A stretch of DNA of 64,000 nucleotides from Burkholderia cepacia GG4 (GTDB lineage Bacteria; Pseudomonadota; Gammaproteobacteria; Burkholderiales; Burkholderiaceae). The notes beneath the pieces were generated by a model. That model searched no databases. It was not told where the DNA came from and saw only the letters and a program-made list of their open reading frames with translations. The stretch lies in the NCBI RefSeq assembly GCF_000292915.1, contig NC_018514.1, forward strand, positions 1,922,001 through 1,986,000, given 5' to 3'. A program made the translations under genes and the position numbers. Every line of letters starts with the position of its first letter. Within the stretch, counting starts at the first letter, position 1. Of the stretch, positions 31,288 through 36,452 are shown piece by piece.

Positions 31288-32661
31288 CTAGTAAGCGTTG
31301 CTGCCGGCGAAGCCTTTCCAGAGAGTCAGCACGACGATCTTGATGTCGAGCCAGAACGACCAGTTCTGCATGTAGTACAGATCGAGCTTCACGCGTCCCA
31401 TCATCTTCTCGATCTGGTCGGTCTCGCCGCGAAAGCCGTTGATCTGCGCCCACCCGGTGATGCCCGGCTTGATCCGGTAGCGGAACATGTAGCCCTTCAC
31501 CAGATCCTTGTAGATGTCGTCGTGCGCGAGCGCATGAGGCCGCGGGCCGACGACCGACATCTCGCCCTTCAGCACGTTGATGAACTGCGGCAGTTCATCG
31601 AGGCTCGTGCGGCGCAGAAAGCGGCCGACCGGCGTCACGCGCGTGTCGTTCTTGGTCGCCTGCGTGACGTGCCCGGCCGCTTCCTGATGCACCTTCATCG
31701 AGCGGAACTTGTAGATCTCGAACTCGTGCCCGTCGATGCCCTTGCGCTTCTGGCGGAAGAACACCGGCCCGCGCGACGTGAACTTGATCAGGCATGCGAT
31801 CAGCAGCATCAGCGGCGCAAGCATCGTGAGCGCTGCGAGCGCGAACAGCCGGTCGAACACGAACTTCGGCAGGATCCGCACATCGGTGATCGGCGACGCT
31901 GCGAGGTTGATCGCCGGCACGCCGAGCAGCTCGACCACTTCCTGGTTGAAGAACGACAGCGTGCGCACGTCCGGAATGAAGCGGATATTCACGAAGTCGT
32001 GGCGGAACACCGTCACGATCTGGTGAATCCGGCGCTCTTCCGTGATCGGCAGCGTGAGCCACAGTTCACTGATTGCCCGGCTGCGCACCAGCCACACCAG
32101 CGATTCGAACTGCCGCTCGATGCGCACGTCGTCGAGCGCGACTTCGCCCGGCACGTCGCTTTCGTCGTACACGCATACCGGCTTGAAGCCCGCTTCCGGG
32201 CGCGCCCGCATCTGCGCGATCAGCCGCCGCGCCGCCGGCGTACCGCCGACGATCGCCACTGCCTTCAGGTTGTAGCCGCCACGACGCAGTTGTCGCAGCA
32301 CGACGTGCACGCAGGCCTTCGAGCCGACGAGCAGCACCATCGTCACGAGCGCCCAGTAACCCAGCCACAGCCGCGACAGGTCGCCCGACTGGTGAAAGCT
32401 GAAGCTCATCAGGATGCCCGCGAGCTCGACCACGAGCCACGCGAACGCGACGCGGCCCACCAGCCCGACGAGACGCTTGCCGCGCCACGACTGGTAAATG
32501 CCGATGGCCGGAAAGAACACGACGACGAGCAGGCAGTCGAACAACACCGTCGTGCGCTGCAGGTCGTTGAGCCAGATGCTGCCGCCGTGCAGCGCGGCGG
32601 CGATCAGCGCCCCCATCACGACCATCGCGATATCGATGACTCTCGCCAGCACGCTCAACAT
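31288..32661 (-). CDS. bceB: Undecaprenyl-phosphate glucosyl-1-phosphate transferase BceB
   Basis: A 457-residue protein from ATG 32661, which has GAGGAAGC six bases ahead; the frame stays open a further 60 bases upstream with no good ribosome site. The N-terminal half has four or five membrane helices and a CoA-binding-like Rossmann segment ([17 protein letters not shown]). The C-terminal PHPT domain has [33 protein letters not shown] and [14 protein letters not shown]. It starts the repeat unit by moving glucose-1-phosphate to undecaprenyl phosphate. Confidence 0.94.
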
Positions 32662-33100
32662 GTCTGCTTCCTCTTTGAACAGGCGTTTGCCGAACAGCTC
32701 CTTGCGCAGCCCGTGCCGCACATTCGATTCAAACGTTGCATGACGCTATTGAAGCGGTAAGAAAATCCGCCCTCAAGTGCACAAGTATTTCGAAAAATAA
32801 TCGGAAATTCTTGCCGCGATATTCCAGAATTAAATCGGCACGTTTTCCCGAATCGACCGTGAATCGGGAAGTTTTCGGAAACTTTACGGATTCCGCCAAC
32901 CCTTTACGGGATGGAGCTCCATGGCGATCCGCCGAATTATTTTTTATTTTTTTATTTGCATCCGCTGCTATCGCGGAAAATTTTCCCGGATACGAATTCA
33001 ACAAACGTGCCCAACAAATATCGGCCAATGAGCCCGGTTTTATTGTCGATTTACTTCATGCTACAAACAGGCACTGACTTCAATCGAGGAGAGTGTCACC
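32662..33100. promoter_or_regulatory. Divergent bceB/bceA promoter region
   Basis: An AT-rich stretch between the two divergent cepacian units. It holds three dyads: TTCCCGA/TCGGGAA (32845-32851 and 32864-32870), AAGTTT-TCGG-AAACTT (32869-32884), and the perfect palindrome GGAAAATTTTCC (32975-32986). A T-rich tract lies at 32939-32957. No confident sigma-70 or sigma-54 core promoter could be assigned. GAGGAG precedes the bceA ATG. Confidence 0.6.
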
Positions 33101-34627
33101 ATGAATGCTCCGGCCGTGGTAGCCGATACCCGCCCTTCTTCTTCCGCCGCAACCGACGCCGGCACGCGCGTCGCGGTGCAGCCGGTGATCCTTGCCGGCG
33201 GTTCAGGCACACGTCTGTGGCCGATGTCGCGCGAACACTATCCGAAACAGCTGATCGGCCTGCTCGGCGATCTTTCGCTGCTGCAATCCACCGCGCTGCG
33301 GCTCGACGGTCTTGCGACCGGCCATCCGCTGAACGACGACGTGCTGATCGTGTGCGGTGAGGATCACCGCTTCACGACCGCGGAACAATTGCGCCTGACG
33401 GGCAAGCGCGCAGCGATCATGCTCGAGCCGCTCGGCCGCGACACCGCGCCCGCGCTGACGCTGGCCGCGCTGCGGATCGTCGCCGGCGGCGGCGATGCCG
33501 TGATGACCGTGATGCCGGCCGACCACGCGGTAGCCGACCTGCCGCGCTTTCACGCGGCCGTCGCGGCCGGCGTGCAGTGCGCGGCCCAGGGCAAGATCGC
33601 GACGATGGGCATCGTGCCGGGCCGTGCCGAAACGGGCTACGGCTACATCCGCGTCGGCGCGCCGCTCGGCGATGCCGCGACCGGCAACCTCGACGTGCGC
33701 CGCCTCGACCGCTTCGTCGAGAAGCCGCATCTCGAACTCGCGCAGCAGTACGTCGCATCCGGCGAATACTGGTGGAACAGCGGCATCTTCATCGTGCGCG
33801 CATCGGTGTGGCTGAACGCGATCCGCCAGCTCGAACCCGAGATCTACACCGCCTGCGCGCAGGCTGTCGCACAGGGCAAGGAAGATGGCGACTTCTTCCG
33901 CGTCGATCGCGACGCATTCGCCGCTTCGCCGTCGAACTCGATCGACTACGCGGTGATGGAACCGCTCGCGAGCCTGCCGCAGCTGTGCGAAAGCGTCGTC
34001 GTGCCGCTCGACGCCGGTTGGTCGGACGTCGGCTCGTGGGACGCGATCTGGCAGATCCTGCCGAAGGACGATGCCGAGAACGTCGGCCGCGGCCACGTGC
34101 TGTTCGAAAACGCCGAATCGACTTTCGCGCATTCGGAAAGCCGGCTCGTCGCGTGCGTCGGCACGCAGAATCTCGTCGTGGTCGAAACGCCTGACGCCGT
34201 GCTCGTCGCCGACAAATCCCGCGTGCAGGACGTGAAGAAAATCGTCGGCCGCATCAAGGCCCAGCGCGGCGCGGAAGCGACCGATCACCGCAAGGTCCAT
34301 CGTCCGTGGGGCCATTACGACTCGGTCGACATGGGTGAGCGCTTCCAGGTGAAACGCATCGTCGTGAAGCCAGGCGCGCGACTGTCGCTGCAGATGCATC
34401 ATCACCGCGCCGAACACTGGATCGTCGTGCGCGGCACCGCGCGCATCACGCGCGGCGATGAAACGTTCCTGCTGTCCGAAAACGAATCGACGTACATCCC
34501 GCTCGGCGTATCGCACCGTCTCGAGAACCCGGGCAAGATGCCGCTCGAACTGATCGAAGTGCAGTCGGGTGCGTATCTCGGCGAGGACGACATCGTCCGC
34601 TTCGACGATACCTACGGACGCGAATGA
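33101..34627 (+). CDS. bceA: Mannose-1-P guanylyltransferase / mannose-6-P isomerase BceA
   Basis: A 508-residue bifunctional enzyme. The N-terminal nucleotidyltransferase has ILAGGSGTRLWPMSREHYPKQ (about 30-50) and FVEKPH. The C-terminal cupin isomerase has RPWGHYD, LSLQMHHHRAEHWIVV with the zinc ligands, and YIPLGVSHRLENPG. It makes GDP-mannose, also the source of GDP-rhamnose for cepacian. It is transcribed away from the rest of the cluster and ends before a strong terminator. Confidence 0.95.
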   Translation: MNAPAVVADTRPSSSAATDAGTRVAVQPVILAGGSGTRLWPMSREHYPKQLIGLLGDLSLLQSTALRLDGLATGHPLNDDVLIVCGEDHRFTTAEQLRLTGKRAAIMLEPLGRDTAPALTLAALRIVAGGGDAVMTVMPADHAVADLPRFHAAVAAGVQCAAQGKIATMGIVPGRAETGYGYIRVGAPLGDAATGNLDVRRLDRFVEKPHLELAQQYVASGEYWWNSGIFIVRASVWLNAIRQLEPEIYTACAQAVAQGKEDGDFFRVDRDAFAASPSNSIDYAVMEPLASLPQLCESVVVPLDAGWSDVGSWDAIWQILPKDDAENVGRGHVLFENAESTFAHSESRLVACVGTQNLVVVETPDAVLVADKSRVQDVKKIVGRIKAQRGAEATDHRKVHRPWGHYDSVDMGERFQVKRIVVKPGARLSLQMHHHRAEHWIVVRGTARITRGDETFLLSENESTYIPLGVSHRLENPGKMPLELIEVQSGAYLGEDDIVRFDDTYGRE

Positions 34628-34691: not shown

Positions 34692-34733
34692 AAAACGCGC
34701 GGGCGCCGTGACACACGACGGCCCGCGCGTTTT
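34692..34733. terminator. Bidirectional Rho-independent terminator after bceA
   Basis: AAAACGCGCGGGC (34692-34704) pairs perfectly with GCCCGCGCGTTTT (34721-34733), and inner GCCGT/ACGGC bases extend the stem. A-tract and T-tract flanks serve both strands. It separates bceA from the convergent gene ending at 34748. Confidence 0.9.
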
Positions 34734-34747
34734 CGTTGGGACGACGA

Positions 34748-35695
34748 TCAACCTACGCGGTACGCGTACTCGCGGCGATCCGACTGAACCGGGTCATTGC
34801 GGCTCTCGGTCAGCACGCCGGCGCGACGCTCCGCGATGAAACGCTTGATGTCCGACTCCGCACGCGCCAGCGCGGACAAGCCGGCCAGCACCTCGCTTTG
34901 CGGCGCACGCACCGGCTCGTCGCTCGCGCCATGGCGGTCGATCCACTGACGTGCCCAGTCGAGCGCGTACTGCTCCGCTTCTTCCGCGTCGGTGAAGCGC
35001 GGACCGATCAGGCCCGAGCGCTCGACGCGCCGGTCGTCCTGCATGATCTCGGCCCACGCGCGAAACATCAGGTTCTGCACCGGCTGCGCGCTGCCGTAGA
35101 CCGTATAGCCGCGATATTCGTCGACTTGCGGTTCGGCCGATCCGAAGCTCGCGGCAGACGGACGCCCATGGCGCAGCCCCGCTGGCTGCGCGCCGGGCAC
35201 GGCGAACGACGCACCGGACGACTCGTCCGTGTCGACGCTCGACATCGGCGCCAGCGTCGCGCCCTCGCCCCCGCCATGCCAAACGTTTGCCTGGGCGACC
35301 GGCAATTGCCACGATTCGGGGTTCTGCCAGAACACGCCGCGCAGACGGTCATTGTCGGGCACGGACTCGGCACGGCACACCGGCGCCACCGGCACGGGCG
35401 GCGGCGGAACGTACGCGAACGTGCGCCCGCTGAACTGGGTCAGCACGTCGATCATCTGCAGCAGCGTGCCGTTCGCCAGCCACTCTTCGTAGCGGCGACG
35501 GCACGTTGGCCCGGACGGATAGCGTCCGGGCAGTTTGGACCACGCTTCACCGGTCGTCAGGATCCAGAGAACCGCATTGGCAACAACGCGCGGTTCGGCT
35601 CGCGGACGGCCTCGACGGTTCAGCCGGATCGGTTCATCGGCGATCAGCGTTGAAAGACGAAACCACTCTTCATCGTTAAGCTCATCGAAGAACAT
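34748..35695 (-). CDS. IS5-type transposase N-terminal domain fused to a novel C-terminal region
   Basis: A 315-residue protein starting at ATG 35695, seven bases after GGAGAG. Residues 1-90 match the DUF4096 helix-turn-helix found at the front of IS5-type transposases (LNDEEWFRLSTLI, NRRGRPRAEPRVVANAVLWIL, TGEAWSKLPGRYP, RRYEEWL). No DDE catalytic domain follows. Instead come a proline linker (YVPPPPVPVAPV), a stretch with RLRGVFWQNPESWQL (118-131), and a compact block YRGYTVYGSAQ...FRAWAEIM...FTDAEEAEQYALDW (194-247) that I do not recognise. No terminal inverted repeats are seen. It looks like a domesticated DNA-binding protein, perhaps a regulator of the adjacent cepacian genes. Confidence 0.8.
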   Translation of the reverse strand: MFFDELNDEEWFRLSTLIADEPIRLNRRGRPRAEPRVVANAVLWILTTGEAWSKLPGRYPSGPTCRRRYEEWLANGTLLQMIDVLTQFSGRTFAYVPPPPVPVAPVCRAESVPDNDRLRGVFWQNPESWQLPVAQANVWHGGGEGATLAPMSSVDTDESSGASFAVPGAQPAGLRHGRPSAASFGSAEPQVDEYRGYTVYGSAQPVQNLMFRAWAEIMQDDRRVERSGLIGPRFTDAEEAEQYALDWARQWIDRHGASDEPVRAPQSEVLAGLSALARAESDIKRFIAERRAGVLTESRNDPVQSDRREYAYRVG

Positions 35696-36025
35696 AGTAG
35701 ATCTCTCCACACAGCCAGGCCGGGGCTGCGATTGTCGGCGCCGCCGTCACGCATCGCGTCACGGGGCGGCCCGGTTGCACATTATGGTTATCCGCTTGTT
35801 GTGCATGCCGATGCAGCACCGCACTTTCACGGTGCCGCCATTCCCGGCAATGGCGCACAAATCACGGTCTCACTCCAATGTGGGAATTTTTGTGCACGAA
35901 GCATACCATCCTCAGGGTTTATCTCAATATGACAATGACTTAATGTTACGCACTGAAACATCCTGCCATGGATGCGCAATGTATTTACGCTTGAATTTTT
36001 TTACGCGATCGTGATGCCCGGCGCT

Positions 36026-36052
36026 GGGAAGGCCCGCCTGGCGGGGCTTCCC
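36026..36052. repeat. Long near-perfect hairpin
   Basis: GGGAAGGCCCGCC and GGCGGGGCTTCCC pair at 12 of 13 positions with a single base between the arms. There is no T-run in terminator position. The right arm plus two bases recurs exactly at 44052-44066. Confidence 0.7.
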
Positions 36053-36135
36053 GGAGTGCACCGCATATCCGACTGAAGGGCTTCTGAAGGCATTCCGACC
36101 CTCCCCGGCAACAATCCCGAGAATGGCTTCCTAAA

Positions 36136-36188
36136 ATCGGTAAATCAGGGGAAATTTGGTAACAAGATATTCACGGATCGGTAAATCA
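36136..36188. repeat. 12-bp direct repeat, copies 41 bp apart
   Basis: ATCGGTAAATCA occurs at 36136-36147 and again exactly at 36177-36188. The offset of 41 bases is close to four helical turns, so a protein bound to both would lie on one face of the DNA. Confidence 0.7.
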
Positions 36189-36452
36189 TTCAAATTCGGC
36201 ACAACCGAATTATCTCCATGCACAATCTTTTTATTGTTCCTCTGCGGGTGATGAAAGCAAACTGACGTGCAGTGCACATTGTTTCCCGGCATGCAAGCGC
36301 TGATGGGTTTGTTACATCCTCGCGGTGCGCGGCCGGCACGGCGCGCCCGCGCCGCCCGGACGGCCTGGTTTCGGGTCGGACCCGCACCTCAGGCGTGCCG
36401 CGTGCACCCGGCGTGCGATGCGAACCGCGGCATGGGCGACGTGCGGCCCGCC

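Follow-up and report, generated by a model that had tools for sequence, protein, structure and literature searches.

A probable host regulator with a transposase-type DUF4096 domain beside bceA in Burkholderia

What is a gene labelled as a transposase in the databases doing at the edge of the cepacian exopolysaccharide locus of Burkholderia? The gene in question lies on the minus strand of a 64,000-nucleotide stretch of Burkholderia cepacia GG4 (NC_018514.1, positions 1,922,001 to 1,986,000), here called the window, in which all coordinates are given unless another locus is named. Its product begins with a DUF4096 domain of the kind found in IS5-type insertion sequence (IS) transposases. The original prediction, made from the letters of the window, read it as a retained gene and offered a plausible guess that it regulates exopolysaccharide or itself. 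The gene is intact, under selection, syntenic and of defined domain make-up. As judged from sequence, the domestication of a transposase part into a host gene is close to certain, and the gene, rather than being a mobile element, probably serves its host as a regulator. We favour, at a probability of roughly 55%, the reading that the domesticated IS5-type N-domain is a DNA-binding regulator tied to, or co-expressed with, cepacian.

Domain make-up and ancestry

The protein is built from the following parts:

34748..35695, minus strand: the gene, encoding a 315-aa protein of DUF4096, linker and CV_2116-like parts; ATG at 35695-35693
35453..35680, minus strand: DUF4096 transposase N-domain, residues 6–81, a predicted helical DNA-binding domain (Pfam, structural model, selection)
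35306..35347, minus strand: linker peptide, residues 117–130 (RLRGVFWQNPESWQ region), invariant and common to a 133-aa paralogue
35129..35305, minus strand: disordered, fast-evolving linker, residues 131–189 (structural model, selection)
34922..35128, minus strand: CV_2116/DUF6566-like domain, residues 190–258, with five strands and one helix in the model

The first ~90 residues had been predicted to be of DUF4096 type, and Pfam places the domain at residues 6–81 (E = 3.4e-18; 66.1 bits against a cut-off of 34.3). A structural model of residues 1–95 has a mean predicted local distance difference test score (pLDDT) of 88. The N-domain is shared with the DUF4096 transposases of the IS5 family, which we take to be the IS402/IS427 type. 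Unlike these enzymes, the gene has no DDE domain and no kept terminal repeats, occupies a fixed locus and carries an extra C-terminal domain; the protein covers just positions 4–83 of the 258 in the IS5 model NF033580. No match to a DDE catalytic domain was found in the protein with Pfam and NCBIfam up to an E value of 1, in agreement with the proposed loss of that domain, and as a control the same Pfam scan detected the DDE domain of a genuine IS.

Across residues 106–184 the pLDDT drops below 50. The block behind this linker, left unnamed in the original prediction, can now be given a weak name, DUF6566, from a match of residues 190–259 (24.5 bits in the protein search and 27.6 bits in the genome scan; cut-off 26.7). 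The CV_2116_dom profile matches weakly, at 13.6 bits against a cut-off of 58, and the best structural match to the C-terminal model, among the matches listed, is CV_2116 (2KON). Profile and structure searches thus point to a small CV_2116-like domain, by predicted fold and a weak sequence match over residues 190–258, and not to a worn DDE domain. CV_2116 itself is described as an 82-aa prophage protein, of unknown function, that stands alone (PMC3397530), whereas its likeness here is part of a larger protein.

Each of the 80 loci fetched, that of GG4 among them, keeps an open frame, 276–418 aa long (that of L088 starts in undetermined bases), so that frameshifting in relatives is no objection to a retained gene. 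Selection was gauged from the ratio of nonsynonymous to synonymous change (pN/pS) in 53 species, whose 1378 pairs are not independent. The ratio was 0.059 for DUF4096, 0.000 for residues 117–130 (zero nonsynonymous differences among the species), 0.636 for the linker at 131–189 and 0.142 for the C-terminal domain at 190–257. As a yardstick, bceA gave 0.193 from 52 sequences, L076 being left out. The comparison reveals strong purifying selection on DUF4096, the peptide and the C-terminal domain. An alternative role, that of a protein-interaction factor such as an anti-activator acting through the CV_2116-like domain and the peptide in place of DNA binding, is improbable, since DUF4096 is more constrained than the C-terminal domain and its arginine-rich helix is kept.

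The flanks and copy number were compared with those of mobile elements. Terminal repeats had been said to be absent; imperfect inverted pairs are present, the best matching at 14 of 15 nucleotides (34661-34675/36010-36024) and scoring above 15 of 15 shuffles in this genome. The best pairs in four relatives (11–13 of 15) fall inside the shuffle range, so the 14/15 pair is not a kept feature. The gene sits at one fixed site by bceA, against 12 equal-scoring copies of a control IS in one genome. In a genuine IS5-type element of the GG4 genome (L111:928-1842), DUF4096 and DDE are encoded by two separate open reading frames (ORFs), and the inverted repeat is perfect over 20 nt. This element lies in or beside a larger ORF.

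A 'transposase A-like' gene, Bphy_1055, is reported upstream of the first bce gene, with a suggested role in acquiring or transferring the cluster (PMC7378592). This idea is not supported by the present data. On such a reading the gene would be the remnant of an IS that moved the cluster between strains, which would account for the transposase annotation, the cluster-edge position and the one 14/15 pair in this genome; it retains next to no probability given the missing DDE domain, strong purifying selection, the one fixed site, flanking pairs that do not exceed shuffles in the four relatives and tree groups that follow genus codes.

In a tree of 34 N-domains, the bce-linked proteins group together, and the 133-aa paralogue is next to the group. 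Support is weak (82/86 and 81/74), branches are long and only two IS rows are included; the tree alone does not prove one domestication event. Alignment A1 consists of P0001 and 61 of the best 120 of 542 homologues. Other domesticated transposon proteins of bacteria include the TnpB-derived repressors (TldR) and RAYTs, likewise mobile-element proteins retained for host use but derived from different families of transposon; in the present gene the N-domain is all that is left of a DDE-type transposase, and it is fused to another domain. Should the gene regulate bce, it would clearly illustrate, in bacteria, how a DDE-type transposase can become a regulator by loss of its nuclease.

Retention beside bceA

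The neighbourhood of the gene contains:

33101..34627, plus strand: bceA (GDP-mannose pyrophosphorylase/mannose-6-phosphate isomerase), the convergent neighbour; bce name from papers
31288..32721, minus strand: bceB-like gene for a priming glycosyltransferase, transcribed away from bceA; named after papers and gene order
34692..34733, no strand assigned: terminator-like perfect stem in the spacer that separates the gene from bceA, with a terminator score on the minus strand alone

The long protein is encoded in 64 of 65 genomes of the genus; G040 has a match to the short paralogue only, and G050 carries the gene in two pieces on two contigs. Of the 65, 61 have a full bceA match and one, G023, has a partial one; every one of these 62 genomes has the gene and bceA in convergent order. 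DNA was read for 61 of the 62; convergence in G050 comes from coordinates only, G050 and G040 not having been fetched. In a sample of 258 family genomes outside the genus, 52 gave a bceA match above 750 bits, and in each of them the gene shares a contig with bceA and converges with it. The two matches are 21 to 1288 bp apart in these non-genus genomes, and 3175 bp apart in G250. By genus, the numbers with both genes, neither, or the gene only are 11, 29 (as listed) and 0 for g10; 34, 4 and 0 for g20; 3, 0 and 0 for g13; and 4, 0 and 7 for g25. Genomes that owe the gene to common descent are not independent trials.

Pairs of the two genes were counted by hand among the matches listed, with the best seven candidates for the gene and the best five for bceA scored per genome, and the 52 non-genus pairs were recomputed from coordinates. 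The 750-bit limit was set after the rows had been viewed; G070 (g7, 741 bits) falls just under it and has no long gene. The gene is thus neither confined to one strain nor loosely placed, and its synteny with bceA is near-universal. Together with the failure of the three objections that had been named (presence in one strain only, frameshifts in relatives, a worn DDE domain at the C-terminus), this makes its description as a retained gene well supported.

A bidirectional terminator had been proposed to separate the two genes. They do converge on a perfect 13-nt stem (arms 34692-34704/34721-34733), to which the terminator scan gave a score on just the minus strand. Second relatives with DUF4096 and the C-terminal domain, away from bceA and with frames of 284–312 aa, were seen in G300:C40, G243:C13, G076:C22, G289:C61, G112:C2:2277521 and G044:C74.

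Promoter, candidate operators and proposed role

Position next to BCAM0854 (bceA) and published description, not a comparison of sequences, are the grounds for treating the gene as the orthologue of BCAM0853. One study gives BCAM0853 as NtrC/sigma54-dependent, with a log2 change of −4.1 (PMC5491218). In another, BCAM0853 ('Transposase') was higher in the wild type than in an rpfF (Burkholderia diffusible signal factor, BDSF) mutant, 3.1-fold by RNA-seq and 10-fold by proteomics, with complementation ratios of 0.8 and 0.7 (PMC3502180); the protein is evidently made, because proteomics detected it as BDSF-dependent. Control of the bce genes is called 'not yet fully understood' in PMC8231446. Neither a functional study of the gene or BCAM0853 nor work on DUF4096 in Burkholderia was found in the open-licence literature, subscription papers lying mostly outside the search.

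The upstream region and the bceA-bceB spacer have these features:

35893..35908, minus strand: promoter core TGGTATGCTTCGTGCA, with an extended -10 (TGnTATnnT) in 80/80 loci
35865..35941, minus strand: most conserved promoter/leader stretch in the 53-species alignment
35696..35892, minus strand: leader of ~190 nt with conserved words, a stem-loop at 35710-35730 and a ribosome site at 35703-35709
35890..35897, plus strand: TTGTGCAC, a candidate operator; 35799-36225 holds several TTGTGC words, this one included
32777..32784, minus strand: second and last exact copy of TTGTGCAC in the window, within the spacer of the divergent pair bceA-bceB

The AT-rich upstream region and proper ribosome site of the original prediction are both confirmed, the G+C content being 46–55% in 35800-36299 against 59–71% in windows within the gene, and the ribosome site reading TGGAGAG. 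Across the 53 species, conservation is 91–99% in the bins from -275 to -126 and 96–97% in the last 50 bases before the start. The leader contains two well-paired stems, whose covariation is not above control; no RNA claim is made.

With one mismatch allowed, TGGTATGCTTCGTGCA is the single match to TGGTATGCTTCNTGCA in this genome. It can be read in two ways. As an extended -10 (TGnTATnnT), it has TTGAGA 16 bp upstream in GG4. As a sigma54 promoter, it agrees with 9 of 12 consensus positions, a score reached in 6.1% of single-base shuffles. Both sigma54-type dinucleotides, GG and GC, are found in 75 of the 80 loci, GC being broken in L052, L078 and L081 and GG in L092 and L093; the search pattern itself demanded GG and GC, so that their constancy in its 75 matches is uninformative. 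The extended -10 is the better reading because it is kept in 80/80 loci while a sigma54 dinucleotide is lost in five. The best upstream NtrC boxes were no better than single-base shuffles (15/80 loci). In L092 and L093, where the GG of the core is lost, bceA is reduced to remnants of 51–109 aa and the gene and the bceB-like gene remain.

The TTGTGC words, which we take to resemble half an NtrC box, are candidate operators and serve as a lead. TTGTGCAC has 107 occurrences in the 6.47-Mb genome and two in the window. TGCACA and GCACAA head the 6-mer counts for the 600 bp upstream of the gene (19 of 80 loci). The same words bear on whether the product could instead be a trans-acting repressor of related IS5-type elements that occupies IS ends. 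Genuine IS transposases, including one in GG4, do share DUF4096 with the gene. The gene product shares just 28–31% identity with that IS in the DUF4096 region, TTGTGC is missing from the ends of that IS and from the shared ends of the 12-copy relative, and repression of IS elements would leave the co-occurrence with bceA unexplained; we consider it very improbable.

In the regulator reading that we prefer, an ancestor of Burkholderia and its sister genera would have retained DUF4096, shed the DDE nuclease and joined the domain to a CV_2116/DUF6566-like domain by a flexible linker with a fixed peptide. The gene would have settled at a fixed place at the cepacian locus edge, co-expressed with the cepacian genes under NtrC/sigma54 and BDSF as in the published data. 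DNA binding by the product is likely and control of bce plausible, as far as letters and predicted folds can tell: DUF4096 most likely contacts DNA, and the FWxNPESW peptide and/or the C-terminal domain most likely a partner protein, target sites and direction of regulation being conjectural, and the product probably tunes its own promoter and that between bceA and bceB. If it regulates bce, the gene would offer a direct handle on mucoidy in opportunists and plant symbionts.

Several observations weigh against this reading. Enrichment of TTGTGC shows clearly in some lineages but not at all in others: the upstream regions of L087, L090 and L101 have no such word, and of the 17 loci with a bceA-bceB spacer (aligned in 52 of 53 species, L076 having no usable one) only 7 have it there. 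With a sigma54 dinucleotide lost from the core in 5/80 loci, the sigma54 dependence in the literature may be an indirect one. No useful PDB match was found for DUF4096, and no binding or mutant data for the gene in the open-licence literature. In nine genomes the gene is kept where no intact bceA is present, which tells against a role confined to cepacian: seven of g25, with no bceA match above 750 bits among the matches listed, and G038 and G042, with an intact gene beside a bceA remnant of 51–109 aa.

These nine genomes favour another account, in which the product is a host factor with its main targets elsewhere, held in place by chromosomal order and merely sharing cepacian expression. DNA was read for L094 and L095, two of the seven in g25; neither has a bceA or bceB match in the 12–13 kb fetched, yet both keep the promoter core, and L094 also keeps the same upstream neighbours and a UDP-glucose dehydrogenase. 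On the other side, among the 78 listed genomes of g10 and g20, 45 have both genes, 33 have neither and none has only one. We regard this account as unlikely, though deserving of real weight.

DUF4096 paralogues

Four DUF4096 genes score above the cut-off in this genome: the IS, the gene and the two below.

L113:1483-1884 (G000:C1:2109887-2110285), on the other large contig: 133-aa DUF4096 paralogue
L112:1342-1800 (G000:C1:2082515-2082745), ~27 kb from the 133-aa gene: third DUF4096-only protein, ~150 aa

The 133-aa protein is 54–55% identical to the gene product over ~131–136 residues and has the same DRLRGxFWxNPESW peptide, but no C-terminal domain. It is far more constrained than the gene, being 95–100% identical in 63 of 65 genus genomes; the G012 copy is 97% identical over residues 21–133, and no close copy is present in G057, whose assembly is 82% complete. 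In the family, matches at E <= 1e-20 occur in 79 of 150 genomes, the best copies being 82–95% identical in several other genera and 56% in g11. In an order-wide sample, the paralogue as query matched 3 of 200 genomes at E <= 1e-15, the lone one outside the family holding a 12-copy IS. The promoter of the paralogue resembles the sigma54 type more clearly than that of the gene does: TGGCACGCTTCGTGCA agrees with sigma54 at 11 of 12 positions, reached in 0.05% of 2000 shuffles in this genome, and the promoter spacer varies among the seven copies compared. From this conservation, the paralogue looks like a core regulator behind a transposase-type domain, which suggests that core regulators can hide behind such domain names.

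It is possible, if on balance doubtful, that Burkholderiaceae possess a regulator family derived from transposase N-domains, in which one docking peptide would serve a common partner and nitrogen and quorum signals would be tied to exopolysaccharide. Its members, proposed jointly and just as tentatively, would be the near-invariant 133-aa core protein, with its promoter of sigma54 type, and the longer protein linked to cepacian, which depends on NtrC/sigma54 and quorum sensing.

Matches like the ~150-aa protein occur in other genus genomes. Genus g11 (e.g. G141, G179 and G192) has DUF4096 relatives at E 1e-36 to 1e-39, which were not counted as orthologues; they have the N-domain and peptide region, with ~56% identity to the 133-aa protein and listed open frames of 148 to 369 aa. 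In the window, a gap of ~750 bp upstream of the gene is followed by DUF3501-type, GlpC-like and rubrerythrin genes, named from their ORF sequences.
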